Source: a virus
Direction: 5' to 3' (one strand)
Length of the DNA stretch: 64,000 nucleotides
IMG/VR virus record: IMGVR_UViG_3300025151_000022
Location: 1-64,000 of that record
Shown: positions 6,857 through 31,224 of the stretch, one piece after another
How the letters are laid out: every line of letters starts with the position of its first letter
Position numbering within the stretch: the stretch's first letter is position 1
The notes under the pieces: model-generated
Databases searched by the model: none
What the model saw: the letters and a program-made list of their open reading frames with translations, nothing else
What the model was told of the DNA's origin: nothing
Program-made: the position numbers and the translations under genes

Positions 6857-6885
6857 ATTCTAGTGGGTTTTTAGGATGCTGTCAA
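6857..6885 (-). promoter_or_regulatory. Sigma70-type promoter heading a small-gene operon
   Basis: Minus-strand TTGACA (6880-6885), 17-nt spacer, TAGAAT (6857-6862; five of six consensus bases). It straddles the end of the metalloprotease gene and lies 25 nt before the ATG of the 67-aa gene. Confidence 0.75.
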
Positions 6886-7338
6886 GCGATTGGGAAATGG
6901 TGTGCCACGACCAAAAGATTCGGGTCCAAGACCCAAATAGCAATAATAAAGTTTCCTCTCCATTTCTCTTGCTTCAAGTTCCCAGGGTTGATTGGAATAG
7001 TCCGTATCAGAGTGGTCTATGCCCTTCCAGAAGCGTTTTTCACCCTTATCCTTTAGATTACCCTTGACATGTTGATAAACGTGCCAGAGTTCGTGTAAGA
7101 GGGTGCTGGTGTAATCATCAATACTCATCTGATTGTGTAGTTCAATTTCAAATGCTCTTGGTCTCCAGTCACAATCAAGGACAGTACACCAACCATATAC
7201 ACCTTCATGAACTAATCCGCGATGATGTACAACAATTTCTAGTTTGTGTCGTGGTAGATACTTATCCACAAACCATTGAACTATACTTTCGCAACGATTT
7301 TTGCTATAGTTGTATCCTGAGTATTCAAGAGAGAGCAT
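6871..7338 (-). CDS. HExxH zinc metalloprotease-like protein
   Basis: A 155-residue protein with the zinc-binding motif HELWH at residues 82-86 on a long helix (STLLHELWHVYQHVKG). Acidic residues downstream in NQPWELEAREME (Glu119/Glu121) could supply the third ligand, which would make it gluzincin- or SprT-like. The N-terminal half contains beta strands and a conserved-looking HHRGLVHEGVYGWC. The size fits small phage/SprT-type peptidase domains. The substrate is unknown; cleavage of a host regulator or of a phage protein is possible. The ATG was chosen over a TTG three codons upstream. A sigma70 promoter for the next operon lies inside its last codons. Confidence 0.8.
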   Translation of the reverse strand: MLSLEYSGYNYSKNRCESIVQWFVDKYLPRHKLEIVVHHRGLVHEGVYGWCTVLDCDWRPRAFEIELHNQMSIDDYTSTLLHELWHVYQHVKGNLKDKGEKRFWKGIDHSDTDYSNQPWELEAREMERKLYYCYLGLGPESFGRGTPFPNRLTAS

Positions 7339-7423
7339 TGATCGCAAGCGAAGTCACACGAGTTCCCCATTGCATCATCCATAAAAATGATCCAATGAAA
7401 ATTAATTTTTCAGTAGTTGACAT
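7325..7423 (-). CDS. Tiny hydrophobic protein (32 aa)
   Basis: A short reading frame, MSTTEKLIFIGSFLWMMQW..., with a hydrophobic stretch at residues 7-18 and a polar second half; it may associate with the membrane. It starts 25 nt after the last base of CTGAAGCC box copy 5 and overlaps the metalloprotease start by 14 nt. Its position relative to the box is like that of three other box-led genes, which is its main support. It could be a leader peptide for the metalloprotease gene, or not translated at all. Confidence 0.45.
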   Translation of the reverse strand: MSTTEKLIFIGSFLWMMQWGTRVTSLAINALS

Positions 7424-8172: not shown

Positions 8173-8180
8173 TATTTATT
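8173..8180 (-). promoter_or_regulatory. T4-type late promoter (AATAAATA)
   Basis: The minus-strand octamer AATAAATA lies 27 nt before the ATG of the 223-aa gene and overlaps the end of the radical SAM gene. It matches the cyanophage late pattern NATAAATA. Confidence 0.55.
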
Positions 8181-9036
8181 CTTGGTTTGGTACTTTTCCA
8201 TTTTCACAAAATCTGCATAGGTCAAAGCAAGTATTCATTTTTGGTACAACATCTTCATACTCTTGCTCAAATAAATTCCCAAGAATATGCTTTAGTCCAT
8301 AATCCATACAACATAAAGAAACATCACCATTGGGCAACATGACATTGTGATATAGTTCTTCTACACATCCGCATGTCATATCCTTCTCTCCGTGATATAC
8401 CGACTTCCATTCATCTTTTCTATTCATCAATTCTGGTTTTAGAATTGCCTCGTGAAAAAGATTTCCAGACCTCGACCACATTTGAGACTGAGTTGGGTTG
8501 TCCCAAAGGTGCATTACTCTTTGATGGGGTTTTCCCATACACATAACATTAAAATTGCGATGAAGTTCTCCTCTTCTCCATGTCATGTAAATTGTTTCAA
8601 GTAAATTGATGTACTTATCAGTAATTGGATGTTTTGCTCTTAAATCATCATCAGGTACATGTAAAGTAAATCCACCATTTGGTTGTCCTGCCCAAGGAAT
8701 ATGTTTTATTCTATTCCAATCTCTTACTGTCATACCAATTCCAGTTGTAAATACTGAAACATCATGCCCTTTTTCGGATGCATAGAGAATCATATCAGTA
8801 CAACGTGGATTTAAAAAAGGTTCAGTAAATCCAGCAAAAGTAACTCTTATTTCTTGTGGTAGTTTGTCAATTACCTGCTTAAATTCAGTTAATTCAAGAA
8901 ATTTTTTACCTTTATATGATCCCTGTAAGGTTCTCTGTGGACAATAAACACAATCAACGACGCATCCAGTTTTAACGTCGATTGAAGTTGTAAATTCTAA
9001 AGTTGGACAATCTGTAACCGACCAAGGTTTATTCAT
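8176..9036 (-). CDS. Radical SAM enzyme with C-terminal SPASM-like cysteine cluster
   Basis: A 286-residue protein. The CxxxCxxC iron-sulfur motif is at Cys25, Cys29 and Cys32 (CVVDCVYC). About residues 75-85 hold a beta strand ending FAGFTEPFLNP, where this family has its SAM-binding GGEP-like loop. The C-terminus has a cysteine cluster CGCVEELYHNVMLPNGDVSLCC...CFDLCRFC, the pattern of SPASM domains that carry auxiliary iron-sulfur clusters. Such enzymes modify peptides or sugars by radical chemistry, for example in anaerobic sulfatase maturation and RiPP pathways. No small RiPP precursor is visible beside it. Its neighbours are the methyltransferase/oxygenase fusion and a glycosidase-like protein, so a glycan or virion-protein substrate is plausible. 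Confidence 0.88.
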   Translation of the reverse strand: MNKPWSVTDCPTLEFTTSIDVKTGCVVDCVYCPQRTLQGSYKGKKFLELTEFKQVIDKLPQEIRVTFAGFTEPFLNPRCTDMILYASEKGHDVSVFTTGIGMTVRDWNRIKHIPWAGQPNGGFTLHVPDDDLRAKHPITDKYINLLETIYMTWRRGELHRNFNVMCMGKPHQRVMHLWDNPTQSQMWSRSGNLFHEAILKPELMNRKDEWKSVYHGEKDMTCGCVEELYHNVMLPNGDVSLCCMDYGLKHILGNLFEQEYEDVVPKMNTCFDLCRFCENGKVPNQE

Positions 9037-9056: not shown

Positions 9057-11009
9057 TTATTTAGTGTCAAAGAAGAACATTTGCCACAATCTTCCATTAT
9101 TCATATTTGATCCAAAGTATTCTGAAGCAGAATGAATGTTGCTGGCATCAAAAATGAAAAGACGATTGTAAACATTTCCGCAAACATCTACCTTTTCAAA
9201 ATGAGTTCCGTCACAATGAACTCCTCCTGAATATATTTCATTTGGATCTGGCGACCATGCATCTCCCCAACCTTGTTGGAAGAAATTTCTAGCTCTAGTT
9301 TTTTTATGTGCATATAAAGTAGTTCCACACTGATATGGAGCGTCTGGAGTTAGATATAACATTCCACCCCATTTTTGTGAGTCGCAATGATATGCAAGTG
9401 GTTCTCCACCAACTGCATTTTGAAATCTTCCATTCATATTATGTTCTTCCCATGCAGTTATTTCTTCTCCCATAATTTGTTCGAATTTTTCCTTCAATCC
9501 AGGAAATAGAAATTGCTCTGCACTTCTTCTTCCAATAAATCCTCTACCCCATCCACCTTCAAAATATTTTTGTTTAAGAGCAAAGTCTCTAACAGAGTTT
9601 GGGTCATCATAGAAATTATCAATAATCCACATAGTTTTTAGTTGTTGTGATCCATTGAATTCAAACTCCGTTTTTGTTGTGGTTACATCAATAATTTCAG
9701 CAAAAGTTTCTTCTTCATTTGATGCTTGTTGAATATTCACTAAATTAGAAAATGATGGTTCTCCTGGGAACATATAATCTTCTGCATATTTTGTTTTTCC
9801 ATCTACCAAAGTCATAGATGCTAATGCAGTTTTATCCACTAAATCTGGATGAACCCACCAGTCTTCAAAAGGACAGTTTTGGTCGGGGGAAATATTATCC
9901 GCAACTAAAACATATCCCTTTGATCTTAAGTACTCTCTAGACTTATCTCTATATGATTTTGTTGGATCTGCATAGTAGTCATGCTCATATGTAATAACTC
10001 TAAATTTATACTCTTCGAATGGTATTTTCATCAAAACATCATAAGTTGCATTTGGAGGATCAATATCTAATTGCAAATAGTCAATAGTTTTGTCTGCAAA
10101 CATCATACCAAGAAGTTGACTGTAATCAGTTTGCGTAGCATCTACACAAAACATTGTTGTGTTATGTCTTTGTGCTCTATATTCCTCTGCAAAATTTGAT
10201 TCTAATTCTAAAGATACTCCTGTCCAATCATATTCCAGTTCTAATAATGCAGTGTTATTTCCAAAGAAAGGTCTTGCCCCACCAACTTCTAAAAAGCAAC
10301 CGTTTCTTTTTCCATCAAGCATACAAAGGACGAATAAATCCTGATATACCTGTGCATAATTTTTTTCTAAAAGGTGTGATCCTAAAAATTTATATCTAAA
10401 TTTTTCATATTGGTCTTTTGTATATGGTAATGGATCATGCCAAGCAGTAGTTTTTTGAATTTCTTGTATATTTGTTTCTACTAACACTTTTTCTTCCTCC
10501 GTCAAATAATCTTTTTGGTTTAATGTATTGAATAATTTTGCTGCTTTTTGATGCTTTCCTGTCCACCAGGCACTATGCGCTTCTTCAATCTCGAAATATG
10601 TTTTTAAATTTCTAAAAGGTGTCTTATAAAATTTAAAATCTGGAGAATCAAAGTTGCAAATTTTTAATGCAAATTTACAATAGTTATGTGCAGATGAAAA
10701 ATTTTTTGCAGTTACATCCATGTCACATATTCTTTGATATGCTTCTGGTCTCTCTGATTTGGTTGACAATGCAAGTTCATACATGAATTTTGTATGAGTT
10801 TCTCTCTCACCTTGAGCAGCAAAGCAATCTCCCATGTGAATTAAACATTCATATGCTAAATCTAGATCACTGGTTCTATCTGCACATCTAAGAAAATATG
10901 TCACAGCAGCTGCTGTTTGATCTATTTTATAATATCTTACCGCAAGGTTGTAGTTAGTGATTGGATTTTCTGGATCAGCAAGATATTCGTGTAAAAATTT
11001 ATTTTCCAT
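9057..11009 (-). CDS. Three-part fusion: TPR region, FkbM-like methyltransferase, 2OG-Fe(II) oxygenase-like domain
   Basis: A 650-residue protein. Residues 1 to about 190 contain TPR-like helix pairs (NYNLAVRYYKIDQTAAAVTYF). Residues about 220-390 resemble FkbM-type SAM methyltransferases: YAQVYQDLFVL, GCFLEVGGARPFFGNNTALLE, and LQLDIDPP before a YEHDYYAD strand. Residues about 455-650 form a DUF6445-like 2OG-Fe(II) oxygenase module starting MWIIDNFYDDPNSVRDFA, with HCD (H-x-D), a distal IHSAS histidine and GRLWQMFFF arginine as expected iron and 2-oxoglutarate ligands. Such a fusion could methylate and hydroxylate the same glycan or protein, with the TPR part binding the target. Its start overlaps the end of the glycosidase-like gene by 11 nt. 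Confidence 0.8.
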   Translation of the reverse strand: MENKFLHEYLADPENPITNYNLAVRYYKIDQTAAAVTYFLRCADRTSDLDLAYECLIHMGDCFAAQGERETHTKFMYELALSTKSERPEAYQRICDMDVTAKNFSSAHNYCKFALKICNFDSPDFKFYKTPFRNLKTYFEIEEAHSAWWTGKHQKAAKLFNTLNQKDYLTEEEKVLVETNIQEIQKTTAWHDPLPYTKDQYEKFRYKFLGSHLLEKNYAQVYQDLFVLCMLDGKRNGCFLEVGGARPFFGNNTALLELEYDWTGVSLELESNFAEEYRAQRHNTTMFCVDATQTDYSQLLGMMFADKTIDYLQLDIDPPNATYDVLMKIPFEEYKFRVITYEHDYYADPTKSYRDKSREYLRSKGYVLVADNISPDQNCPFEDWWVHPDLVDKTALASMTLVDGKTKYAEDYMFPGEPSFSNLVNIQQASNEEETFAEIIDVTTTKTEFEFNGSQQLKTMWIIDNFYDDPNSVRDFALKQKYFEGGWGRGFIGRRSAEQFLFPGLKEKFEQIMGEEITAWEEHNMNGRFQNAVGGEPLAYHCDSQKWGGMLYLTPDAPYQCGTTLYAHKKTRARNFFQQGWGDAWSPDPNEIYSGGVHCDGTHFEKVDVCGNVYNRLFIFDASNIHSASEYFGSNMNNGRLWQMFFFDTK

Positions 11010-11991
11010 TTATAAAATCTCCCAATACTTTTTCTGGAATTTTAACAACATAAGCAGCGTTGTCTTGATATCCAAAAGTAATATAATAGTATCCTTTATG
11101 TTCACACATTCCACAACAAAATTCAATTTTTGCTCCCATAAAAGAAAAGATGGGAGACCTTTTAATTACATTCCAATCTTTATCCCAATAAGTTAATTGA
11201 TGGCGATACGTTCCATTTTTTCTATCAGTCTTACTTCTATACAAAACAGTTAGATGTTGAACTGCCAAATATCCATCTTTATAAGGAATTACTTGTGAAG
11301 CACCTCTAATGTCTTTGATTTTTGGTGAATTATCAAAAGTTCCATGGTATAAAGTTTTACATTGTATATTATTTTCTTCCTTTATATTAGCTTCTACAAC
11401 TTCAACGGGATTGCTCCATTTTATATACTGGAAAGGTCTATCCAAAATTGGCATCCAGTTTTTTTCACAATAACTATTATTTGGTGGAGGTGCTGGAATT
11501 CTAGATCTTTTTACTTCAGTTACTTTATCTCTTTGAATATCAATTTCTGATAATTCCATTCTTCCAGTGCCAATAGGATCAACATCTCTTCTGACACCTG
11601 TTAAGTAATATTTTCCATCCCATTTTACCAATCTACCATCTTCAAGACCGACAAATTCCCATAACGGTTCTTTGTCAAGAGAGGTAGTATCAACTCTTCG
11701 TACATTATCCAAAACCATATTGTCATCCAAGACGCCAATATAATTCGTAGTTCTTAAAGTTTTATCATCATCGGGGTTTAGATAAAGCAGAGGACCCCAA
11801 GGATGTTCATAATTATTGAGTTCTGAATGATATAAAGTATATTGACAATGGCGCACATTAACTAGTAGTGTGCCATTGTCATTTAAAATACTTGGATTAA
11901 ATAAACCCGTTCCGTTTGTGATTTCTGCTGGAATAATAAGAGGTTTAATAATCCCACCATTATCAATACAGTGTTTTACAAAATTCTCCAT
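10999..11991 (-). CDS. Five-bladed beta-propeller glycosidase-like protein (GH130/GH32/43-like)
   Basis: A 330-residue protein with repeated blades typical of propeller glycosidases and mannoside phosphorylases: FNPSIL with VNVRH near the start, an EDGRLVKWDGKYYLTGVRRD blade with the acidic residue at the blade start, CEKNWMPI then IKWSNPVEVV, GASQVIPYKDGYLAV and FCCGMCEHKGYYYITFG. The substrate cannot be read. It could trim a host glycan or act on sugars attached to virion proteins. The ATG was chosen over a TTG four codons upstream. A CATAAATA late-type element lies about 33 nt before the start, so it is likely expressed late with the fibres. Confidence 0.8.
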   Translation of the reverse strand: MENFVKHCIDNGGIIKPLIIPAEITNGTGLFNPSILNDNGTLLVNVRHCQYTLYHSELNNYEHPWGPLLYLNPDDDKTLRTTNYIGVLDDNMVLDNVRRVDTTSLDKEPLWEFVGLEDGRLVKWDGKYYLTGVRRDVDPIGTGRMELSEIDIQRDKVTEVKRSRIPAPPPNNSYCEKNWMPILDRPFQYIKWSNPVEVVEANIKEENNIQCKTLYHGTFDNSPKIKDIRGASQVIPYKDGYLAVQHLTVLYRSKTDRKNGTYRHQLTYWDKDWNVIKRSPIFSFMGAKIEFCCGMCEHKGYYYITFGYQDNAAYVVKIPEKVLGDFINGK

Positions 11992-12023: not shown

Positions 12024-12031
12024 TATTTATG
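12024..12031 (-). promoter_or_regulatory. T4-type late promoter (CATAAATA)
   Basis: Minus-strand octamer about 33 nt before the ATG of the glycosidase-like gene, spanning the stop of the 1652-aa gene. Confidence 0.5.
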
Positions 12032-15000
12032 CCTGAGATTCTGCCCAAGAAATTCTAGATGCAACCTGGAATGAAGAAGTAGAGTCAATTTCAGCGGTGT
12101 TAATAACCGATGCTGCGATTGTAATAATATCAGGACCATTGGGGAATACTCCATCTCCACCAAGAATAGAATTACCCAAATCAACTAATCCAGATAAATC
12201 AAATTGCGTCGAAGACACAAATCGTTTTCCAGCAGCGTCTTCAGAACCACCAGATGCTCTAAACTGATAGACGACTGTTCCTCCATCTACTGTATCGCCC
12301 GCTTCATGTGCAACATACTGAGAAAGTGATGGCGATCCAACATTTGCATAATTGAGATTACTTAAAGAACCGTTCAGAATGACACTAATATTAGCATCAT
12401 GAGAAACAGAAATGCCAAGTTCTCTCATCTTTAATTGCATTCGATTGATAATATCTCTTTCACCAAGGTCGCCAATAATATTATTATCAGCTGATGGAGC
12501 AAGTCTAACACTAATCAATGGAATATTAGAATTAAGATCAATTCCGGTGGTGCCGACCACTTGAGCACCAATGCTCACAGTTGTTCCTCCAGCAATTGAC
12601 GGATATGCTACTGGAGCACTATATCCACTAGAAATAAAGATATGGACATCGAAACTGGTACTACTATATGATGTATAATCAACTGGTTGTCCATTCAATA
12701 CATTATCGGCAGTAAACAGTGGAATACCTGTTTGGAACTTTGAACTATCACTAGTTGCAAATGGTATTTTAACATAGTAAGTTCTATACCTACCCCATCC
12801 ACTTGAAACCAGACTTGATGCTCCACCAGTTACGGCAGTAGCTGCGTCACCATTTGTAAATGTAAGTGTATTACCTGATGCCGTAAATAAGTAACTATCG
12901 TCATCATCAAAACCGCCATCCATAATTACAGATGTGCCCCAGTGGAACAATGATGGTATGTATGTAGGAGAAGCATCTTCATTGTATACTTCATACCTAG
13001 CTGGAACGTTTCCAGATCTCATATACGCTTCATTGAGTTTGTTATTATGAATAAACTCATGAACATACTTAACATGACCATAAGTATCTTTAAATCCAAA
13101 ACGAATCTTTCCAGCACCATACCAAGAATAATCCATGTATGCCATCTGAATCTTATTAACATCTAAAATATATCCAGAAGGACCAGTACCATCAGATTTA
13201 TCAATGTTCCACCTATGCTGTGGAACTCTTGTATCTACTGTTTTTGTAACAATAACTCCTCTATTTGATGTTCCTCTATATGCTGGTTGTACGTGTATCG
13301 AAGTATCTGATTCTATACTAGTAATTTTATAAGTTTGACCACGTATTACGACTCGATCTCCAGCTACTAAATTATCACTAAATTTGGTATTAGTGCCATT
13401 AATAATATTACTTTTGTTGACAACTTGAACTGTGCCTGGAATTTGTTGAACTGAAGATCTTCTTACACAATACAGATATTTTCCGTCATATTCAAAGAAG
13501 AATCCATTTTGGAAATCAAATAATCCAGCACGAATACCTGCATTCTTATATCCAGAAATAACATAATCAACAAATCCTTTTGGATTAGTTTGGACCACAC
13601 TTCCATTAGTAGTGTAACCAAATGTGAAATCTGTAGCAGATGTAACTTCAAAAGTTCCATTATATGCATTACTGGTGTCAATATGAGTAACTGCATTTGC
13701 ATCAGCACTAACAAAAGTATGTGCTCCAACATATGTTGAGGTGCCAACATCAACAACAAATGTATTTGTTGTCACTGACAAGACCTTAAGACGCTCTCTT
13801 TCACCAGCTGGGTCAGTGGAACGTGGATATGGATGGTTTGTTGCATGTGCATCTTTAGCACATGTAAATGTAATTGACTCTTCTTCAAGAGTTATAAATT
13901 CACCTTTTAAAATTCCATGACCATTAACGGTGATGGTTAAAAGTCCAGTTGATGAATCATATGTAGCATCGGTGGGTGTAAGTGATATGTGCTCTTCTGT
14001 TCCGGTAATAGTAACAGTGTCTCCAGAGGTTAATCCATGAGGATATTCTGTTGTTGCGGTTGCATTTGTTCCGCTTCCTGTTATAGAAAGAACTTGTCTT
14101 GATGGATTAAAGTTAATTGCCATCGAGCATTGAATGCCTTTACCTGACTGATATCTAAAGTATTTTCTAGTTTGTCTGACAATTTGAGAATCTGGTGAAC
14201 TTCCAGCAGTAATGTCAACTCCACCATCAAAAGGTCTATGAAGGAATGTTCCATCTGCTCTAACGTTGACTTTAGTGTCAACATAATGAGCTGCTCCAGT
14301 TGTAACAAATCCAACCCCACCATCTATAGCTAAAGACGTATCACTAACAATTGATGTAATCTCTCTACTAACATATTGGTTTACAGTTGAACCATAAGAA
14401 ACTATATTAAACCTATCTCCAATTTTATAAGTCGATGAGAATTTAGTAGAAGTTCCCTCTACAACTTTACTATCACTTGATGCTATTGAAATAGTTCCTG
14501 TAGATGCAACTCTTCCACTGATAGAGAATACCAATAGTTTATACGATGAAGATACTCCCTGAGTTCCAGTTATAGCATTTATGTTTCCTGTCCATTCACT
14601 TTGAGTTGATGCTAATTGTATATTATTTGCATCAACAACTATTGCATAATATTGATTTCCTCCAGTAAGACCCCCAGGAGCAGATCCACTAGTTATACTA
14701 TATGTAACGATAGATCCATTACTTAAACCATGACCATCAATGTTTATGTAATATTCACCACCATTTTCAATTACATTACTATTGGTAAATGCAAGTTCCC
14801 TAGCTGGTATTGTTCCAGACCCCTGTAGAGTAAATGAGGTTGCTGCAGATCCCGTTAATGCATAATAATCATCATGAACTCCAGCAACTTGTTCTGTTTC
14901 TATTAAAATAGGTCCTTGTCCACTACTCGTAAAATTAAAGGCATTATTATTAGCATCACTTAATGTAATTCTATTAGTACCTTTATTTGTAACAAAAGCT

Positions 15001-16985
15001 GTATTTTGATTTCCAGTACCAGTATTTTGCCATGAACCAAAAGCAATATTGTTAGCAACTTCAGATGCAATGTTACTTGCTATTTGAGCATATGTTAAAT
15101 ACGAAGCATTACTAGCTGCAAAGTAACTGCTGGTATAAGAAGTACTTCCATCATGATATGGAATTATGGTTTTTATGAGGTATGATCCACTATGTTGGTT
15201 ATATAACTGTGCTGTCAGTGGGTACGTACCATTCATATAATTCCATCTCCAATTCACACTATTTGAAAAATATCCCGACCAATTAGTATTTTCTAAGTGA
15301 ATGGTCATTCCAATGTAACCGGGCAATCCATATCTTGGATTATATTCTGCACAGTAATATGTGTATTGCCATCCATTAGATAAAATTTGTTTTGTTGTTT
15401 GTTGAGTTTGAACATCAAGAGGACGATAATTGGAAGTTCCTGCATACTGTGAATAATAATCAGTTTCTCTCCAAAGCGTCCTAGCTCCATTAGCCCATAA
15501 ATTGGGTTCTGGAATTTGATATATTGTTAAAGCATAAGGTAAACTTCCTAAGTATTCAAATGCACTAAACTTAGCGAGAAATACTCCATCCATAGATCCA
15601 CTGATTGGATCAACTCCAGCAGTTTTTGCGCCCAATGCTCCATAATCAACAACTTGACCTGTATAAAGTTGTGAAGGACTAAATGAATCTTGATTGAAAG
15701 TATAACTTGCTATGATTTGAGTACTATTCTGGTTGGATATACCAAGATAATTATCTTGGTAATAGTTGCCATAATGCCCATAGACCAACTGTTGATATTT
15801 GTTTGCTAATCCATTAGCAGTTATTTGTGTATAACTACCCCGAGAATAGTATAATAAGGTTGCAACACTATTTTCCATGGCAATGTACGCATCATTGCCA
15901 TCAGCATTGATCTGATCTTTAATAGCTTGGATGGCATTACTTGCATGAGTCCAAACATTGTTCAATGCTTCTTCGCCAGATGGTGGTGGAGCACCTGTAG
16001 CTGCGGTAGGTAATACACCTCCTACTTGTGCAGTTGCATATACTTTTTGACCCGTAAATAAATTATGATTTTCTAAGTATAAACTTTCATCTGTTGGATC
16101 AATTGTAGGAGATCCATCCGCAGCATTTGAAGATGTATTATTAAGTGTAAACTCTTTTTTACCTACAGTATTGCTGAGGTAAACACTAGTTCCATTGATG
16201 AGACCATGTTTGTAGTCTGTAGATATAGTTAGAGTGGATGGACTTGATCCATCAGTTTTTATCCCATCATATAAGTTAAAAACAATATCCGAACCTGTAA
16301 AGAAAGAACCAGGAATAATTGTTGTATATGCTGTTCTAATATCAGCAGATGTTGATTGAACAGCTCGTGCCTTGTATATAAATGAAGTCGATGATGCAAC
16401 TGTTGTTACAACATATTTTCCATTTGCAGTTCTTGAAGTTGTGCCTTGCACTTCAATTGGATCACCAACTGCTAAATCATGAGGAACTCCAGTAAATACT
16501 GTTATATAATTGGAACTTGCAATAGTTGTAACTCTATTAATTTTTCCAATAGATATACCAGATTCTCTAGTATATACAGAAGGAATATTATCTACTAATT
16601 CAATTGTTTCCCACTTAGTTGGTTGTAGACCATATTCAAAATCTGTATCAATCAAGTTTTGAGGATTTGAAACCCTCATTTTGTGAACTGGATCTAATAT
16701 AGATTCTCCAGGATCAATTTTATTTTCTTGTTCATCAACTAAAATTTGAATTTCATCACTATCACTCATTGAGGTAGTGTTGTATTCTAATGTAATTGTA
16801 GTTTCATTACTATCAGCATCATATGATGTAGTGCCTCCAGTATTGGCATCGGCAAAATTATAGATAATGGCACCATCGGTGACATTAGTAATCAGAATTA
16901 ACGTTCTGAGAGTAAATAACCCACTTATGGTGATTGTCTGTGCAGAAGCGTCAAATGCATAATTGTAGATTAATTTCTTTGCCAT
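12027..16985 (-). CDS. Very large virion structural/fibre protein (1652 aa)
   Basis: A 1652-residue protein made of repeated beta modules rich in Thr, Ser, Gly and Asn. Phrases such as HGLTSGDTVTITGT, PHDLAVGDPIEVQGT and GTNTKFSDNLVAGDRVVI recur, a style seen in large cyanophage and pelagiphage virion proteins. A conserved-looking core near residues 930-1250 (IVRQTRKYFRYQSGKGIQC, FFFEYDGKYLYCVRR, VPQHRWNIDKSDGTGPSGY, KIQMAYMDYSWYGAGKIRFG) may be a globular domain. There is no enzyme motif. A GATAAATA late promoter lies 31 nt upstream. It is probably a tail-fibre or baseplate appendage; no T4 gene number can be given safely. Confidence 0.85.
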   Translation of the reverse strand: MAKKLIYNYAFDASAQTITISGLFTLRTLILITNVTDGAIIYNFADANTGGTTSYDADSNETTITLEYNTTSMSDSDEIQILVDEQENKIDPGESILDPVHKMRVSNPQNLIDTDFEYGLQPTKWETIELVDNIPSVYTRESGISIGKINRVTTIASSNYITVFTGVPHDLAVGDPIEVQGTTSRTANGKYVVTTVASSTSFIYKARAVQSTSADIRTAYTTIIPGSFFTGSDIVFNLYDGIKTDGSSPSTLTISTDYKHGLINGTSVYLSNTVGKKEFTLNNTSSNAADGSPTIDPTDESLYLENHNLFTGQKVYATAQVGGVLPTAATGAPPPSGEEALNNVWTHASNAIQAIKDQINADGNDAYIAMENSVATLLYYSRGSYTQITANGLANKYQQLVYGHYGNYYQDNYLGISNQNSTQIIASYTFNQDSFSPSQLYTGQVVDYGALGAKTAGVDPISGSMDGVFLAKFSAFEYLGSLPYALTIYQIPEPNLWANGARTLWRETDYYSQYAGTSNYRPLDVQTQQTTKQILSNGWQYTYYCAEYNPRYGLPGYIGMTIHLENTNWSGYFSNSVNWRWNYMNGTYPLTAQLYNQHSGSYLIKTIIPYHDGSTSYTSSYFAASNASYLTYAQIASNIASEVANNIAFGSWQNTGTGNQNTAFVTNKGTNRITLSDANNNAFNFTSSGQGPILIETEQVAGVHDDYYALTGSAATSFTLQGSGTIPARELAFTNSNVIENGGEYYINIDGHGLSNGSIVTYSITSGSAPGGLTGGNQYYAIVVDANNIQLASTQSEWTGNINAITGTQGVSSSYKLLVFSISGRVASTGTISIASSDSKVVEGTSTKFSSTYKIGDRFNIVSYGSTVNQYVSREITSIVSDTSLAIDGGVGFVTTGAAHYVDTKVNVRADGTFLHRPFDGGVDITAGSSPDSQIVRQTRKYFRYQSGKGIQCSMAINFNPSRQVLSITGSGTNATATTEYPHGLTSGDTVTITGTEEHISLTPTDATYDSSTGLLTITVNGHGILKGEFITLEEESITFTCAKDAHATNHPYPRSTDPAGERERLKVLSVTTNTFVVDVGTSTYVGAHTFVSADANAVTHIDTSNAYNGTFEVTSATDFTFGYTTNGSVVQTNPKGFVDYVISGYKNAGIRAGLFDFQNGFFFEYDGKYLYCVRRSSVQQIPGTVQVVNKSNIINGTNTKFSDNLVAGDRVVIRGQTYKITSIESDTSIHVQPAYRGTSNRGVIVTKTVDTRVPQHRWNIDKSDGTGPSGYILDVNKIQMAYMDYSWYGAGKIRFGFKDTYGHVKYVHEFIHNNKLNEAYMRSGNVPARYEVYNEDASPTYIPSLFHWGTSVIMDGGFDDDDSYLFTASGNTLTFTNGDAATAVTGGASSLVSSGWGRYRTYYVKIPFATSDSSKFQTGIPLFTADNVLNGQPVDYTSYSSTSFDVHIFISSGYSAPVAYPSIAGGTTVSIGAQVVGTTGIDLNSNIPLISVRLAPSADNNIIGDLGERDIINRMQLKMRELGISVSHDANISVILNGSLSNLNYANVGSPSLSQYVAHEAGDTVDGGTVVYQFRASGGSEDAAGKRFVSSTQFDLSGLVDLGNSILGGDGVFPNGPDIITIAASVINTAEIDSTSSFQVASRISWAESQA

Positions 16986-17026: not shown

Positions 17027-20000
17027 TTACAACGCAGCAGCAAGAGCAATAGCGAGAGGAGTTGAAACTACATCTCCTCCAACAGATCCTGATGGACCCT
17101 GAATACCTTGAACGGATGCTGCATCTCCTTGAGTACCTATTGCACCTTGAGAACCAGCACCAGTCAAACCTTGAGGTCCAACAGATCCTTGTGCAGCAAT
17201 TGCAGATGCATCTTGACCTTGAATTCCCTGCAATCCTGTTCCAGGAAGACCTTGAATACCTTGAATACCAAGATCACCTTGTAATCCGGTTCCATCAGGA
17301 CCTTGAAGACCAGTGCCACCCTGAGGACCATCAGGACCTTGAACACCTTGGAGACCTGGAGCTGGTCCAAGAGTCATTAACCATCCATTGGCAGTTCCTG
17401 CTCCTGGATCACTGCCACCAATAGAACTATTACCATTGACTGCATAATACCAGTTATGCATTCCAGTATTGGAATTTGAAAAACTAAGGCCAGTTACGTT
17501 GATTGTATAGAATGCTGGATTGCCACCAGAAGCATTAGTGGCACCACCACTAGAGTTTGCTCTAAATCTAAAATATTGCCATCCAGTTGAACTCTTGAAT
17601 TGAAGTTCCAATTCAGCAGGGAAATTAGATGATGCCCAAGGAACAAAGTTTCTTCCATCAGCATCAAATACTGAAACGTATATAGCAGTTGTATTTCCAA
17701 GTCTGAAATTATTAAATGCAAACGCACCACTCGCTAAAGATGATGGTGTGGTATAAGCAGTAGTGTTTGAGTGTACTATTACATTATATTTTCCACTCTT
17801 AACTGGGAATCCAACTTCACCTTGGACACCCAAATCTCCCTGAATGCCCTGGAGACCTTGGACACTAGCAGCATCACCTTGTAATCCAGAACCAGTTAAA
17901 CCTTGATTTCCGTCAGAACCTTGAGTACCTGCGCCAGTTCTACCTTGAACGCCAAAAACTCCCTGAAGTCCATTGGTTCCTTGAAGACCCTGTAGACCTT
18001 GTAGACCTTGAACATTAGCAGCATTACCTTGAGGTCCAGCAGCACCTTGTGAACCTGCTCCTATATCTCCTTGAATACCTTGAACAGATGCTGCATCACC
18101 CTGAATACCTTCATCTCCTTGAGTACCTTTAATACCTTGAAGATCTTCAGCATTTAAATTTTTAATAATAATGCTCGCACCCATTCCAGAGTGGTTGGGG
18201 CAATAATAATATAATGTATTTGGTGCATCGAAAGGAACTATGAATTCTCCTTCTCCATTTGAACCTGCTGTTCCAGTATATGTCCATCCAGATGTATATT
18301 GAGATCCGCCACCATGTGTTCCGTTACTTGTTGTAGAAAGTCTTATTGGATGGTTATTATTTGTAGAAGATGATTGATCAAAGATATATCTTTGACCTCT
18401 TATGAGATAAAGAGTATCTCTCGATACACCATTAACCCAATATCCACCACCAGTTCCTCCTGGAACAGAGATTGTATAAGTTTGTGCTGTAAATTGTTGA
18501 CCAGTTGTTCCTTGCGCTGCTTGCATACCTTGCAGACCTTGGACTGATGCTGCATCACCTTGGACACCACCAGTTCCCTGAGATCCTGTTCTACCTTGAG
18601 TACCCGTTAAACCTTGAACAGATGCTGCATCACCTTGAATACCCAAGTTTCCTTGGTTTCCTTTTCTACCTTGAATACCCTGAATACCTTGGACAGATGC
18701 TGCATCACCCTGAAGACCAACACCAGTTGTACCCTGGCTTCCTCCTCCACCTTGAATACCCTGAATACCTTGGACAGATGCTGCATCACCTTGGACACCT
18801 AAGTTTCCTTGGAATCCTCTTCTACCTTGAACACCTGTTAAACCTTGAACAGATGCTGCATCACCTTGGACACCTAAACTTCCTTGGTTTCCTGTTCTAC
18901 CCTGAATACCCTGAAGACCTTGGACACTAGAAGCATCACCCTGAATACCTAATGTTCCCTGGTTTCCTAATCGTCCTTGAATACCCTGAAGACCTTGGAC
19001 AGACGATGCATCACCTTGAATACCTGTTCTACCTTGGTTTCCTGTTCTACCCTGAGTACCTAGATTACCCTGAACACCTATACCTGCATATTGCCCATCA
19101 ACACCCTGAGCACCTTGGGCACCAGTTACATTAAAGTTGAAATGATATTCATCATAATTAGTGAATGAAAAAGATCCTGTTCCAGTTACGTTATGTGATG
19201 ATATATGAGAAACACTAAATCTCCAAACAGAGGCTCCACTACTAGCAGTACCTGAACTTAATGTAATTGCAGTAACTTCATATACCATGTACTGAGACCA
19301 GTCAAACTTATTGACGGTCATGTACATCTTACTGCCACCATTTATTTGTGACCGTAAATCATCTAAGTAATCAACAACAGTAGTAGTACCACCAAAATAC
19401 CACCAAGCATTACCAGAGAAATCATAGTAAGTAGCACCACTCGTTCCATTAGAATTAAATCTTTTCCAACTACTACTGCTGGTAGTAATGTTATTAGCAC
19501 TTTTCTCCCAAATTATATTATTTGTTCCGGAGAATCCAATAACACCTTGACCACCCTGAAGACCTTGGACACTAGAAGCATCACCCTGAATACCTAATGT
19601 TCCCTGGTTTCCTAATCGTCCTTGAACACCTTGAAGACCCTGAACAGAAGCGGCATCACCCTGAACACCTAATGTTCCCTGGTTTCCTGTTCTACCCTGA
19701 ACACCTTGAAGACCCTGAACAGAAGCGGCATCACCCTGAACACCTAATGTTCCCTGGTTTCCTGTTCTACCCTGAACACCTTGAAGACCTTGGACACTAG
19801 AAGCATCACCTTGAACGCCCAGAGTACCCTGATTTCCTAATCGTCCTTGAATACCCTGAAGACCTTGGACACTAGAAGCATCACCCTGAATACCTAATGT
19901 TCCCTGGTTTCCTGTTCTACCCTGAACACCCTGGAGACCTTGGACACTAGAAGCATCACCCTGAATACCTAATGTTCCCTGGTTTCCTGTTCTACCTTGA

Positions 20001-21439
20001 ATACCTTGAAGACCTTGGACAGACGATGCATCACCTTGAATACCCAGAATACCCTGGTTTCCTGTTCTACCTTGAGTACCCTGGAGACCTTGGACAGACG
20101 ATGCATCACCTTGAATACCCAGAGTACCCTGGTTTCCTGTTCTACCTTGAGTACCCTGGAGACCTTGGACACTAGCGGCATCACCTTGAATACCTGTTCT
20201 ACCCTGGAATCCTAATCGTCCTTGAGTACCCTGAAGACCTTGGACAGTAGAAGCATCACCCTGAAGACCAAAAGTACCCTGGTTTCCTTTTATACCTTGG
20301 AGACCTTGGACACTAGCAGCATCACCTTGAAGACCTCTATCACCAGTTCTATAGAATTGTAGGAAACAAGTTTGCCCATTACTAAAAATGTAATTTGTAT
20401 CAACAGCACTAACGGTTATTTCAAAATAACCACTATGTTCTGTTACAGCAGTGACATTCCAAATGTGAAGTTCAGCTTCATCCCAAGTTTGATCATCATC
20501 ACTTCCATAAATTACCAAATGTCCCGTACTATTGGGATTAGTGGAATCATCAAAAGTTCTCAACCAAGGTTGAACATCAGAATTTCCACCTAAACATACA
20601 TCATCAATATAAATTCTAGTTGTTTGCCACTGCTGGAAGGAATTGTTGTATCTAAATTTTCCACTGCCAGGATCACTATTAGTTGTAGTAGTGTCAAATT
20701 CAAATGGAATTCCTGCTTGTTGTCCTTCTGTTCCAGTAATACCTTGAGTGCCCTGAGTGCCCTGAACACCTTGAACACCTTGATCTCCTATAGCATAGAA
20801 TTGTAAAAATATACGATCACCATCACTAAAACCATAGTTTGTTTGTTTAATTGTAATATCTATTACTTTATAACCAAAGTAACTAGTAACATCATTTACT
20901 GTAGCAATAATAAATTCATTCGTATCCCAAGTTTGATCATCATCACTTCCATATATCCATAACGTTCCTAAATCACCAGGATTAGTAGAATCATCAAAAG
21001 TATTAACCCAATTAGAGATTGAATTACCATGGTAATCTTGGTTACTGATGATAATTTGTGTTGCATTATAAAGATTAGAGTTATTGAACCTAATTTGTCC
21101 ATTAACCATACTAGAAGTACTAGTAGAGCTATCATATTCAAGCTCAACTCCAGGATGCTTTCCTTCTGTTCCTAGAATGCCCTGAATACCTTGAGTGCCT
21201 TGAACGCCCTGAATACCTTGAATGCCTTGAGTACCCTGAGTACCCTGAGTGCCTTGAGTTCCTTGAACACCTTGAATACCCTGGAGACCTTGTAGTCCTG
21301 CATCATATGGGTGAATCCAATTCACCTCTCCATTTTGAGTGGCGACTAAAATTGAGGAAGCGGCTCCAACATTACCACTTCGGTCATAAAATTTACTATT
21401 AGCTCGTATTGGTTGCTTTCCGATATGCATATCTGACAT
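17027..21439 (-). CDS. Collagen-like tail fibre protein with cupredoxin-like insert (1470 aa)
   Basis: A 1470-residue fibre protein. After an opening domain (about 50 residues) it alternates collagen-like Gly-X-Y blocks, dominated by G-X-Q triplets, with globular inserts. Many blocks use a 25-residue unit in which six triplets are broken by GDA(A/S)SVQ. Two inserts near residues 100-220 and 250-370 are paralogous (TFDDSTNP...[10 protein letters not shown]). An insert near residues 980-1095 has HPIRL and CPNHSGM, a cupredoxin-type Cys/His/Met ligand loop. The C-terminus is [11 protein letters not shown], which resembles the end of the 1321-aa fibre. It should form long trimeric fibres. Adjacent oxygenase and glycosyltransferase genes are possible modifiers. 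Confidence 0.92.
17040..18160 (-). repeat. Collagen-like coding repeat block, C-terminal
   Basis: DNA encoding Gly-X-Y triplets with frequent GDAASVQ breaks, interrupted by a non-collagen domain at roughly 17365-17815. Codons for G-X-Q recur in near-identical runs on the minus strand. Confidence 0.8.
18510..19130 (-). repeat. 75-bp-period collagen-like tandem repeats, middle block
   Basis: Successive copies of a 75-bp unit (25 codons: six Gly-X-Y triplets plus the seven-residue GDAxSVQ break) with small sequence differences. It is bounded by the cupredoxin-like insert on the C-terminal side and a globular insert on the other. Confidence 0.85.
19540..20340 (-). repeat. 75-bp-period collagen-like tandem repeats, N-terminal block
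   Basis: The longest regular array, about ten consecutive copies of the 75-bp unit, several almost identical over the whole unit. Such an array should expand and contract by recombination or slippage. Confidence 0.88.
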
Positions 21440-26668: not shown

Positions 26669-28531
26669 TTATACTATTGGAGTAACTTCCATTAAAACCT
26701 TTCTAGCGTTGCTGCTCAGCTGATAAGATTTGTATATATTGTTCAAAATCACAATTCCTTTATATGTTCCGTCAACATTTAGATTATCACCTCCAAAAAG
26801 TTCTTCTGTTGCATAATTAGAACCAGCACCCCAACCATTAGGTTGTGATGCCGAAAAAGGAGCTCCTCCTGCGCCAGCAGCACCTTGTGTTTCAGAATTA
26901 GTGCCAATAAAAGTAAAATCATTATTAATCGCGCATTTTTGACCAGTAAAACTATTTGTACCATCATAAACTGGTATTTGAACATTATTATGAATCGTGG
27001 CACGGTTCGCGGCGATGGCAGCCGAATCTACCCAACTGACACCAGTGAGAATGACTGTAAATCTTCGAGGAATTGTTAATATATCGCTATCAGCAGCATT
27101 CGAATAGTAATTACTAAACGTAGAAGTGTTTTGATATGTAACACCATTGTATGTAAAGTCGGAATAACTACCCGATATAATACTACGCGATTCCGCGTAT
27201 CCATAACTACTATGATTATATATTCCCTCTGATTTATTATTCCATGCCATCTGAGTACCCAGTCTCACATTATCATAAGATGAATACCACGAAACACCAT
27301 AATCGTCCGCTATATCACTGCTATAAACCGGACTACCATTACTTTCTTCTCTTATCACTGGAGGAAAAGAACCAGTATTTGCATCAATTTTAAAGCGATA
27401 TATCCTGCCGTCACCAGGGGAAGCATATGGAGATGCAACAAATAAATTGAAAGATGCATTCGTATCTGTCAGAGCATCATCACCTGCAGATATGCTCATG
27501 CCAAAGTGTTCCTGATCGTCTTCATCACTTTCCCTATTAGATGATGGAAAGTGGTCATAATGAAATGATACAAACCGATTTTTAAATGTTCCACTTACAT
27601 CAAATTGATAGACTCTTCCTTGTCTATACCAAGTATTATTACCATCATCACGAGCACTCGGAGCACCAGCAAAAATTTGACCACGATGTATGCATACTGA
27701 ATATCCAAAATGTGCGTTCTGTCTTTTAATATCATAAGTGCCACCATCGAACTCTGAAGATGGGATGCTTAATCTATTTTCTCCTGTCCCATCTAAATTA
27801 AAAATAAAAACTGCTCCTTCGCGTGATCCAGTAGATGCACTTGAATCCGAAGTGCTTTGAAATGCTGGAGCACCTACAACAATTTTACCACTTCCTATAC
27901 CAACAGAATGACCAAATTGTCCTCCAATTTCATTACTTGATGGAGTAATTATAGTTTGATTACTGCCATCTAAATCCCAAACATACACTCTACCTGCAGT
28001 GTCAGTTGGCCACGAAGCTGGATCAGTCCCACTTGAATTTTCAACTCGTTTAGTTCCTCTATCTCCAACAGCGATCTTTCCTTCTCCTACTGCAACAGAA
28101 AATCCCCAACTTGTAGATGCTACTCCAACTGGTCTAGGAATAAAAGTATATCCAGTGGAACCAAAACCAATATTGCCGTGGTCTCCAAAACCACCATGTT
28201 CTTGATAGATATCAAGATCTCCATTGTAAACACGAACTCCTTCTGGGGAAGTAATTGCAAGTACAGTGCTACTTGGATCTGGATCTGCGACAATTGCTCT
28301 ACCAAGTCCTTCAGATTCTGATACGCAAAGTGCCTTCATAACATAATCAAAGTCTTTAGTTTTTGGTAAAGGAGTTGCTGGAGGAGCAGGAGTTACTGTA
28401 CCATCAGCAAATTTAAATTCAGGTCCACCACCATCAGGAAAAATCCAAACGTTGTCTGTGGATTCCCATTCAGATTCTTTTTGAAGTGAAAAAACTTCGT
28501 TTAAAGATAATACTCCTCTAAGATCTGACAT
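26669..28531 (-). CDS. FG-GAP-like propeller virion protein, copy 1 (620 aa)
   Basis: A 620-residue protein. The N-terminus MSDLRGVLSLNEVFSLQ...EW..DNVWIFPDGGG and the linker TVTPAPPATPL are almost the same as in the next gene upstream. A set of integrin-like blades follows: FGHSVGIGSGKIVVGAP, FGYSVCIHRGQIFAGAP, FGMSISAGDDAL...LFVASP. FG-GAP-like repeats form a seven-bladed propeller in integrins and bind partners through one face. The C-terminal third is a separate beta region. It is probably an adhesin on the tail, attached through the shared N-terminal module. Late promoter CTAAATAT lies 27 nt upstream. Confidence 0.85.
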   Translation of the reverse strand: MSDLRGVLSLNEVFSLQKESEWESTDNVWIFPDGGGPEFKFADGTVTPAPPATPLPKTKDFDYVMKALCVSESEGLGRAIVADPDPSSTVLAITSPEGVRVYNGDLDIYQEHGGFGDHGNIGFGSTGYTFIPRPVGVASTSWGFSVAVGEGKIAVGDRGTKRVENSSGTDPASWPTDTAGRVYVWDLDGSNQTIITPSSNEIGGQFGHSVGIGSGKIVVGAPAFQSTSDSSASTGSREGAVFIFNLDGTGENRLSIPSSEFDGGTYDIKRQNAHFGYSVCIHRGQIFAGAPSARDDGNNTWYRQGRVYQFDVSGTFKNRFVSFHYDHFPSSNRESDEDDQEHFGMSISAGDDALTDTNASFNLFVASPYASPGDGRIYRFKIDANTGSFPPVIREESNGSPVYSSDIADDYGVSWYSSYDNVRLGTQMAWNNKSEGIYNHSSYGYAESRSIISGSYSDFTYNGVTYQNTSTFSNYYSNAADSDILTIPRRFTVILTGVSWVDSAAIAANRATIHNNVQIPVYDGTNSFTGQKCAINNDFTFIGTNSETQGAAGAGGAPFSASQPNGWGAGSNYATEELFGGDNLNVDGTYKGIVILNNIYKSYQLSSNARKVLMEVTPIV

Positions 28532-28557
28532 TTATACTGCAATAGAATAATCTTTAT

Positions 28558-28565
28558 ATATTTAG
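28558..28565 (-). promoter_or_regulatory. T4-type late promoter variant (CTAAATAT)
   Basis: Minus-strand CTAAATAT, 27 nt before the ATG of the 620-aa propeller gene. Confidence 0.5.
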
Positions 28566-30070
28566 AGAATAGGAGGAAATGGCATCATTTGCCAATTATC
28601 CTCAACATCATTCACTAACCTTTCTGCATATAATGCTCCATTTAGGTTTCCAGATGCGTGATTATTACCCACTAAAATATGCCTTTCTATACCATCGAAT
28701 GGTGGTTGCTCATGAGCAGGATCATATTCACTCAGAGACACAGTAACAGAACTCCAATAACCGGTGCCAACAAAACTAGTTGTCTTATAGTAAATTCTAT
28801 TTGTTCCCGGAGCCATAACCATGTTTAGTGAGCTGATACTGGATCCACCATTCGATAGTCGGGCTCGGTATGTTCCAATATTGCTGCGATGACCAAACAT
28901 ATCACCTCTTTGGAAAAGATCATTATATGCCCAATCCTTATAAGTTCCAGCCATTATGTATTCTCCTGCTGAAGTAGAACCCGGAATACTTGAATGATAA
29001 ATTACTCCACTTTTATCTTTAGATCCAGTACCAAAAGAACTAGTTTGTTCATCACACTCACTAGATCCGCAAACAAATTTTCCATTTTTTGCAGCAACAT
29101 GATAACCCATACGATCATAAGAAGTGACTCCATCACCATAATTGTCAGATGCATCATCAGGATCTTCAGCAAAATGCCAAGTTTCGCCAGTACCATCGAG
29201 TTTATATGTAAATACTTCTCCATGATAATATCGTATAAAATCTTGTGAACCTCCTGGAGCTCCGACTACAATACGACCATTACTTATAGCTACACTATAT
29301 CCAAAGAGTATATCATATGCATTGTAATTTTCAGTACCAGCTCTAGTGAGAGCATTTGCAGAAGGTTGTATTTTAAATTCACCAGTGCCATCTAAATTAT
29401 AAACATACACTGCTCCAGCATTGGTGTCATTTCTAGAACCATATACTTTAGTTTCATTTGGGTTGCCAATTGCAACCTTACCATCTCCACAGGCACATAT
29501 TTTTCCGAAATCATCGGCAATTCCTCCAGTTCCTGTACCTGCTTTGTCTATGTTTACATACCCAGTTCCATCATAATTCCATAAATGAGCTCCAGTAGTA
29601 CTACTAACGCAAATCTTTTCATTGGTGGTGTCAACTGTTAAATAATCGCCCCAGGCATCATCAGTTTCTGCATTAGCATAACTTATTTTTCTTAAAGCAC
29701 CTGGGGGATAATCATCAGGATTTGTTGAAATAGTAACTTCTTCATTAGAAGAATCCCAAACAAATATACTTTGTTTTCTATATATTAAAATACTATTAGT
29801 ATTACTCTTAGCAGCTAAAAAAACAAGATCATCAGTCGCATATATTCCTCTCACTCTAGGGAAGGAAGCGACAATATCAAAATTTATACCTATTTTTGCG
29901 AGAGTCATACCTAAGGGAGTGGCAGGTGGCGCAGGAGTTACTGTACCATCAATAAATTTAAATTCGGGTCCACCGCCATCAGGAAAAATCCAAACGTTGT
30001 CTGCAGATTCCCAGGTATTTTCGACAGCTTTTTCATTTGCTTCAGTTAAAGTAAATACTCCTGCTGACAT
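28562..30070 (-). CDS. FG-GAP-like propeller virion protein, copy 2 (502 aa)
   Basis: A 502-residue paralogue of the 620-aa protein. The N-terminus MSAGVFTLTEANEKAVENTWES, DNVWIFPDGGGPEFKF and TVTPAPPATPL are shared. Blades include FGYSVAISNGRIVVGAPGG, DDFGKICACGDGKVAIGNP and MGYHVAAKNGKFVCGSS. It differs from the other copy in its C-terminal domain, as expected for duplicated receptor-binding proteins that have diverged at the tip. A GATAAATA late promoter lies 18 nt upstream. It borders the first enzyme gene of set A. Confidence 0.85.
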   Translation of the reverse strand: MSAGVFTLTEANEKAVENTWESADNVWIFPDGGGPEFKFIDGTVTPAPPATPLGMTLAKIGINFDIVASFPRVRGIYATDDLVFLAAKSNTNSILIYRKQSIFVWDSSNEEVTISTNPDDYPPGALRKISYANAETDDAWGDYLTVDTTNEKICVSSTTGAHLWNYDGTGYVNIDKAGTGTGGIADDFGKICACGDGKVAIGNPNETKVYGSRNDTNAGAVYVYNLDGTGEFKIQPSANALTRAGTENYNAYDILFGYSVAISNGRIVVGAPGGSQDFIRYYHGEVFTYKLDGTGETWHFAEDPDDASDNYGDGVTSYDRMGYHVAAKNGKFVCGSSECDEQTSSFGTGSKDKSGVIYHSSIPGSTSAGEYIMAGTYKDWAYNDLFQRGDMFGHRSNIGTYRARLSNGGSSISSLNMVMAPGTNRIYYKTTSFVGTGYWSSVTVSLSEYDPAHEQPPFDGIERHILVGNNHASGNLNGALYAERLVNDVEDNWQMMPFPPIL

Positions 30071-30095: not shown

Positions 30096-30770
30096 TTAGT
30101 TTTCAACCTTGATATTATATTTTTTTGAAAGTTTTTCATTTTGTTTTTCTAAAGAAGCAAAACCTTGAACTGTCAACCATGTTACGATAGAATATCTAGT
30201 TCCTTTGGTCACTGGTTCAACTCCATGCAAAAAATAATGGTTAGAGGGGAAACAAACCAACATACCTTTCTCTGGTCTAATTCTAATTCCACACTCAGGA
30301 AAAATTAAATCACCACCTTCAAAATCTTTTCCACCATCATTTAAAAAAAATATCATAGATAAATCTCTATCGACACTTTTTTTGAAAATTGGACCATCAG
30401 GAGAATTCCATAAAGCTTCTCCATCAACGTGAGGTCGGTAGTGTCCACCAGGTTTATATATTAATAATTGGGGTAATTCTCCATCAAGTACATTTATACC
30501 ATAAAATTGATTAACAATATTTTTTACACTATGAAAAAGTAATTCTTTTAAACCCGAATAAATGGGTTCTATAGGAACAGTTTGTGTATTTCTGATATTT
30601 TTATCCGTTCTCCATTTTGGTTCTTTACTAGATTTATTAGTTTTTTCGGGGTCAAAGATAGATAAATCTGAAATTTCTGAAGAATTTTCAATATGAGAAA
30701 CTATTTCTTTTATTCCTCGTTCAGAAATAACATTTCTTTCTATTAAAATATTTGAAAGTAGTTTGTTCAT
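30096..30770 (-). CDS. Prolyl-4-hydroxylase-type 2OG-Fe(II) oxygenase (224 aa)
   Basis: A 224-residue protein with the full iron-binding triad of the prolyl-hydroxylase group: His114 and Asp116 (YRPHVDGE) and His182 (YFLHGVEP), plus Arg192 (GTRYSIVTWL) for 2-oxoglutarate. The strand pattern LSMIFFLND and GGDLIFPECG between them is also typical. The likely reaction is hydroxylation of a protein, possibly proline or lysine, using 2-oxoglutarate and oxygen. Phage copies have also been proposed to act in nucleic-acid repair, but the protein-hydroxylase form fits best here. The start overlaps the stop of the reduced DUF6445-like gene (ATGA). The target is unknown; nearby collagen-like and other fibre proteins are candidates. 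Confidence 0.88.
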   Translation of the reverse strand: MNKLLSNILIERNVISERGIKEIVSHIENSSEISDLSIFDPEKTNKSSKEPKWRTDKNIRNTQTVPIEPIYSGLKELLFHSVKNIVNQFYGINVLDGELPQLLIYKPGGHYRPHVDGEALWNSPDGPIFKKSVDRDLSMIFFLNDGGKDFEGGDLIFPECGIRIRPEKGMLVCFPSNHYFLHGVEPVTKGTRYSIVTWLTVQGFASLEKQNEKLSKKYNIKVEN

Positions 30771-31219: not shown

Positions 31220-31224
31220 TAAAT

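Follow-up and report, generated by a model that had tools for sequence, protein, structure and literature searches.

The window analyzed here comprises 64,000 nucleotides (positions 1 to 64,000) of the virus record IMGVR_UViG_3300025151_000022, which is 88 kb long. Structural genes of this record match PHROG families of tailed phages and, judged by the fusion protein described below, its nearest named relatives are Synechococcus phages. The virus is T4-like (cyanophage-type), resembling phages of cyanobacteria. The gene under study and the features discussed with it are the following.

9057–11009, minus strand: whole fusion gene, 650 aa, TPR, FkbM-like methyltransferase and DUF6445 (2OG-oxygenase fold) domains (reading frame, alignment of relatives, AlphaFold2)
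10440–11009, minus strand: TPR domain, residues 1–190, about ten helices (profile against the PDB, AlphaFold2, foldseek)
9759–10427, minus strand: FkbM-like Rossmann methyltransferase domain, residues 195–417 (AlphaFold2, foldseek, hhalign, conservation)
9639–9758, minus strand: low-confidence linker, residues 418–457 (AlphaFold2)
9060–9638, minus strand: DUF6445 domain with predicted 2OG-Fe(II)-oxygenase fold, residues 458–650 (Pfam, AlphaFold2, fold search)
9381–9389, minus strand: HCD, residues 541–543, with predicted iron ligands H541 and D543
9132–9134, minus strand: H626, predicted third iron ligand
9090–9092, minus strand: R640, predicted 2-oxoglutarate anchor, 14 residues after H626
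10999–11991, minus strand: GH130-like/beta-mannosyltransferase-like partner, 330 aa from ATG 11991 (open reading frame listed from TTG 12003)
8176–9036, minus strand: radical SAM/SPASM protein, 286 aa, directly downstream of the fusion gene
12027–16985, minus strand: virion structural protein (phrog_5838), 1652 aa, upstream of these genes
17027–21439, minus strand: collagen-like (Gly-X-Y) tail-fibre protein, 1470 aa, candidate target
33722–34345, minus strand: stand-alone DUF6445 protein, 207 aa, second copy in the genome (64.9 bits)

The fusion gene reads from 11009 to 9057 as 650 codons with an ATG start and no internal stop, and the plus strand across the same interval is full of stops. A single uninterrupted frame had been predicted; it is intact, and its strand, absent from the original prediction, is the minus strand. 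The motifs quoted there were all located in the protein: GCFLEVGGARPFFGNN, LQLDIDPP, HCD, IHS and, near the C-terminus, GRLWQMFFF. An 11-nt overlap between the start of the gene and the end of the upstream GH130-like gene suggests translational coupling. A CTAAATA element, which we take to resemble T4-like late promoters, was seen at 9058–9064 on the minus strand, about 21 nt before the start codon of the radical-SAM gene.

The full-length protein was modelled by AlphaFold2 with a mean pLDDT of 84.6 and a pTM of 0.46, a value that leaves the relative placement of the domains uncertain. The model consists of TPR helices (1–190), a Rossmann alpha/beta domain (195–417), a low-confidence linker (418–457) that is probably disordered, and a beta domain (458–650). 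These boundaries agree well with the Rossmann fold expected at about 220–390 and the double-stranded beta-helix expected at about 455–650, and the three-part reading of one polypeptide proved right. Pfam profiles gave a more divided answer: the DUF6445 domain exceeded its cut-off (35.3 vs 24 bits), whereas the methyltransferase domain fell below that of FkbM (PF05050, 13.1 vs 22.7 bits) and the single window sequence below that of TPR (14.2 vs 27). Pfam TPR_17 was nevertheless matched at E≤0.1 by 14 of the 29 alignment members, and the profile of this protein family, run against the PDB, found designed TPR proteins at 3e-21. In the model, region 1–190 is helical with high confidence, and foldseek retrieved OGT, SPINDLY and designed TPRs for it, OGT and SPINDLY being the best fold matches. 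Together, the profile search and the model identify the N-terminal part as the tandem helix pairs of a TPR superhelix.

The second domain has the features of a class I Rossmann SAM methyltransferase. Its closest folds were the rRNA methylase 3eey (TM 0.60–0.64 by target) and fibrillarin-type enzymes, and the SAM-binding motif residues are conserved: all 101 unique domains have E241, G243, N252, E257, D310 and H343, and 100 of them have an acidic residue (Glu or Asp) at position 268. The predicted link to FkbM held only in a distant sense. PF05050 was matched at E≤0.1 by 7/29 alignment members (best 0.0013), the NCBIfam FkbM model did not match the domain, and a PDB sequence search with the methyltransferase profile gave nothing useful. 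Nevertheless, hhalign aligned the domain with the PF05050-positive domains of related phages over 106 columns (probability 93%, E 3e-7). Both families have a glycine-rich motif I followed by an acidic residue in a Rossmann fold, and the 'iDyL.lD' and 'iT.EH' motifs of the window family align with the FkbM domains of those phages. They differ in that the window family carries LDIDPP or LDCDP where FkbM domains have D-x-E-G, and in a conserved FEDWWVHP block of its own, common to chlamydial proteins. The domain thus appears to be distantly related to FkbM and is called FkbM-like here only on the grounds of profile-profile comparison and motifs. The same domain, with DYLSLD and FEDWW, was also seen in many metagenome-assembled genomes (MAGs) of Chlamydiae (L092–L106), in which it was the only part to match the query. 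Relatives of the TPR-methyltransferase portion occur in a few other bacterial MAGs as well.

DUF6445 (PF20043) is a Pfam family of unknown function whose members are called coat proteins in phage databases. All 29 alignment members matched it at E≤0.1. Because the top 50 matches of the full-length model were confined to the TPR and methyltransferase parts, the domain was modelled alone, from an alignment of 45 sequences, and reached a mean pLDDT of 93.9. The named enzymes among its 50 best PDB matches were 2OG oxygenases, among them PHD2, OGFOD1, HalD and Tpa1 (E from 2.9e-5, TM by query up to 0.63). The HxD...H...R set formed by H541, D543, H626 and R640 is invariant in 107 of 107 unique DUF6445 domains, those of the stand-alone family included. 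On the strength of this model we are confident that the domain adopts the double-stranded beta-helix of 2OG-Fe(II) oxygenases, as had been suspected from its motifs. The iron triad and the 2OG-binding arginine are thus predicted to be shared with prolyl hydroxylases such as PHD2 and OGFOD1, but identity in the fold alignments is 8–16% and a PDB sequence search with the DUF6445 profile found no significant match to any chain. Likewise, hhalign found no significant match (probability 0.5%) between DUF6445 and the PF13640 oxygenase family of the same phages; at this depth, the two are related by fold only. Cyanophage proteins of DUF6445/PHROG 1644 have the same HxD...H...R residues and the NR motif before the distal histidine, and the window domain differs from them in being fused behind TPR and methyltransferase domains. 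The giant virus Satyrvirus encodes a close structural relative, a protein that bears the name GT2-like. The 207-aa protein, suspected to be a relative of this last domain, is indeed one, with 28% identity; such stand-alone copies adjoin PF13640-type 2OG oxygenases in tail-fibre regions. With its predicted fold and invariant residues, DUF6445 becomes a testable 2OG oxygenase.

Several observations on other copies and names were made in passing. The stand-alone gene belongs to a second enzyme cluster of the tail region (window 30096–34345, minus strand), where it is accompanied by a 224-aa PF13640 2OG oxygenase, a glycosyltransferase of 614 aa, a phrog_1574 protein and a protein of 150 aa that weakly matches DUF6445; stand-alone DUF6445 and PF13640 oxygenase recur together in other phages. 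A DUF6445 protein in OR032571 (50606–51199) is named FkbM methyltransferase and a three-part protein in PQ898602 (165855–167720) is named CcmH/NrfG, both likely misannotations.

In order to evaluate how well the fusion is conserved, 80 viral loci, the best of 285 confirmed relatives, were compared. The three-part order is kept in most of their complete genes. Alignments over the whole length, in which the same motifs are conserved, were obtained for 28 diverse full-length relatives (39–54% identity), and there is one near-identical relative (95%). The fusion persists in dozens of viral contigs and is not a chance joining. Variants are nonetheless frequent. Where the window protein has its linker, other phages insert a true FkbM domain (L068 and L073, with others of similar length among L069–L074) or a further methyltransferase (L076, 1073 aa; L080 is alike in length), and an N-terminal Methyltransf_24 is added in L023. 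The parts can also be separate: L075 encodes TPR-DUF6445 and TPR-methyltransferase as two genes, and in L067 and L079 the oxygenase is split off. In view of these variants the fusion, although widespread and evidently useful, is not obligatory, and the two activities do not have to share one atom or residue. A phage protein that methylates and oxidises one target had been considered unusual. This emphasis on rarity is not supported, given that the fusion is common and that relatives exist as separate genes, and a shared target for both activities is only a possibility.

The original prediction also missed the setting of the gene. Directly upstream of the fusion gene lies that of the GH130-like protein (330–334 aa). 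The window protein scores below the Pfam GH130 cut-off (22 vs 26 bits), 7 of 23 relatives match the family at E≤0.01 (best E 4.8e-6), and its chemistry is for these reasons uncertain; a PDB sequence search with its profile returned nothing useful. Used as the sole query, this protein retrieved at least 599 viral hits, and among 55 non-redundant loci found independently in this way, 49 have the same TPR domain in the gene that follows. Within 5 kb downstream of the GH130-like gene, TPR was found in 38/40, methyltransferase in 22/40 and DUF6445 in 21/40 cases, compared with 0/19, 1/19 and 0/19, respectively, within 5 kb upstream.

What follows the TPR domain varies from phage to phage: methyltransferase, methyltransferase-DUF6445, methyltransferase-FkbM-radical SAM, GT2, GT17-MTase24-GT2, GT17-MTase24 or the GH130-like protein. 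Elsewhere GT2, GT17 and GT25 precede it. Exchange with glycosyltransferases is seen in these loci, TPR being joined to GT2 (L143), to GT17, MTase24 and GT2 (L145) or to GT2, GT25 and GT17 (L206), and DUF6445 to GT17 (L145, L214 and L205). Fusions of radical-SAM relatives also exist, with the GH130-like protein in L164, L182 and L199 and with TPR-methyltransferase in L161. When the radical-SAM protein itself served as query, only four loci were returned, which marks its gene as an optional module. These results show that the fusion represents one form of a wider modular cassette in which the TPR domain is joined to varying enzyme modules. Near the cassette in several relatives, and at 6871–7347 (minus strand) in the window, there is also a 158-aa protein with weak matches to SprT/M78-type metallopeptidases and a HELWH motif.

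The genes immediately upstream of the cassette encode tail-fibre or virion proteins (phrog_5838, collagen-like or long tail fibres) in 7 of 8 loci examined; the eighth, L075, has a ribonucleotide reductase there. Runs of at least 8 Gly-X-Y triplets were found within 5 kb upstream in 14/30 loci and downstream in 1/30 (Fisher p = 0.00017, the loci not being fully independent), a collagen-like gene being absent upstream in about half of the loci tested. The window protein at 17027–21439 has over 200 such triplets, with Y mostly Gln, alternating with globular inserts. In general X is mainly Thr, Ala or Ser and Y mainly Gln or Thr, and the tracts contain almost no Lys and little Pro. Collagen-type prolyl or lysyl hydroxylation was judged unlikely from this composition, and O-glycosylation of Thr would be more plausible given the Thr/Gln-rich, nearly Lys-free tracts. 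Two further genomes are informative. In DSL-LC02, a metagenome-assembled genome, the cassette is flanked by a collagen-like protein on one side and a tail fibre on the other, on the strand opposite to the tail genes, and a separate glycosyltransferase/fucose cluster is present elsewhere; the paper on DSL-LC02 makes no mention of FkbM, mannosyltransferase or collagen. S-SCSM2R, whose host is Synechococcus sp. WH7803, carries a three-part protein 50% identical to that of the window, with the GH130-like gene as its neighbour here too, and its cassette follows a gene annotated baseplate wedge subunit and tail pin. Also noted in the tail region of the window (26669–30070, minus strand) were two large neighbouring proteins with FG-GAP repeats and without PHROG match.

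We propose that the fusion is a multi-domain glycan-tailoring enzyme working with its GH130-like partner, likely on glycans of tail fibres or other virion proteins. As a whole, with its activity, glycan substrate, virion target and joint action, this proposal has in our judgment about an even chance of being correct. The TPR domain would serve as a docking scaffold for the partner or the target. The FkbM-like domain would move a methyl group from SAM, most likely onto a sugar hydroxyl, and DUF6445, as an Fe(II)/2-oxoglutarate oxygenase, would hydroxylate or oxidise the glycan in the same part or in one nearby. Both would act together with the GH130-like protein, which is probably a sugar enzyme of phosphorylase- or mannosyltransferase-like type, and in the window also with the radical-SAM enzyme. 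The likely target would be a glycan carried by the products of the genes just upstream, tail-fibre or other virion proteins. The glycan chemistry is suggested by the partners and the tail-fibre target by gene order, which does not prove it, as tail regions of cyanophage type collect many accessory genes.

More tentatively, and with the balance of our judgment somewhat against it, the cassette could be a combinatorial virion glycan system in which a fixed GH130-like and TPR core receives interchangeable modules and the 'glycotype' of the tail fibre evolves by swapping. If so, related phages would give their tail fibres different chemical coats, and aquatic phages would vary their own host-recognition organs chemically. 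This would add a layer of host range and resistance that is invisible to comparison of fibre sequences alone. S-SCSM2R, a phage with a named host, makes the idea directly testable.

The same enzymes could instead remodel the surface glycans of the infected cell, for example O-antigen or S-layer sugars, and so block adsorption of sibling phages or trapping of progeny on debris. Bacterial surface-polysaccharide clusters typically hold glycosyltransferases, FkbM-type methyltransferases and radical-SAM enzymes, the types found in the cassette. The bacterial relatives, in Chlamydiae for the methyltransferase domain and in a few other MAGs for TPR-methyltransferase, fit this explanation, as does the separate sugar cluster of DSL-LC02. 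However, the position of the cassette directly behind tail-fibre and virion genes in many contigs suggests late co-expression with virion parts, and a non-systematic look beside the cassette recognised no membrane anchor, flippase or polymerase. We consider action on the host surface unlikely.

Direct modification of protein, in which side chains of the collagen-like fibre (e.g. Thr or Gln of Gly-X-Y) would be methylated and hydroxylated, is in our view distinctly improbable. Such modification has precedents in collagen and in ribosomally made peptides such as polytheonamide. It would agree with the prolyl hydroxylases among the best DUF6445 fold matches, with the collagen-like proteins upstream in the window and many relatives, and with the radical-SAM/SPASM enzyme adjoining the fusion gene; the TPR domain could bind peptide, and its best fold matches, OGT and SPINDLY, glycosylate proteins. 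Against this, the composition of the tracts speaks against classical collagen hydroxylation, about half of the loci do without collagen-like genes upstream, and the swapped variants often contain glycosyltransferase modules. Slightly less probable still is a small molecule, nucleotide-sugar or nucleic acid as substrate in place of a polymer-bound glycan: the methyltransferase fold does match rRNA methylases and fibrillarin, as most Rossmann methyltransferases do, but a polymer-bound glycan agrees better with the TPR scaffolding, the GH130-like partner and the swapping of glycosyltransferases. Finally, a structural protein with non-catalytic domains is very improbable, since this idea stems from transferred names only (a PHROG 1644 'minor coat protein' match at 3e-29 and the same name in RefSeq phage entries such as S-WAM2), nothing found here backs the coat label, and both the invariant HxD...H...R and methyltransferase motif residues and the fusion of DUF6445 to glycosyltransferases speak against it.

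Glycosylation of virions by phage- or virus-encoded enzymes is already known. Among the papers listed in our literature search there was no report on the function of DUF6445 or on an enzymatic reading of it, nothing on a module-swapping cassette of GH130-like and TPR parts, and nothing combining cyanophages with FkbM and oxygenases. Giant viruses are described as capable of autonomous glycosylation (reviewed in PMC4691112) and mycobacteriophage Maravista as having glycosylated virions (PMC11256854), virus-encoded glycan enzymes being believed to decorate the virions in both cases. The present system has in common with them the virus-encoded glycan enzymes, and the Satyrvirus GT2-like protein with its DUF6445-like domain provides a further point of contact. 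As a working analogy for the fusion itself, OGT and SPINDLY likewise place a TPR superhelix before the catalytic domain, but the catalytic part of the fusion is a predicted methyltransferase and oxygenase and not GT41.
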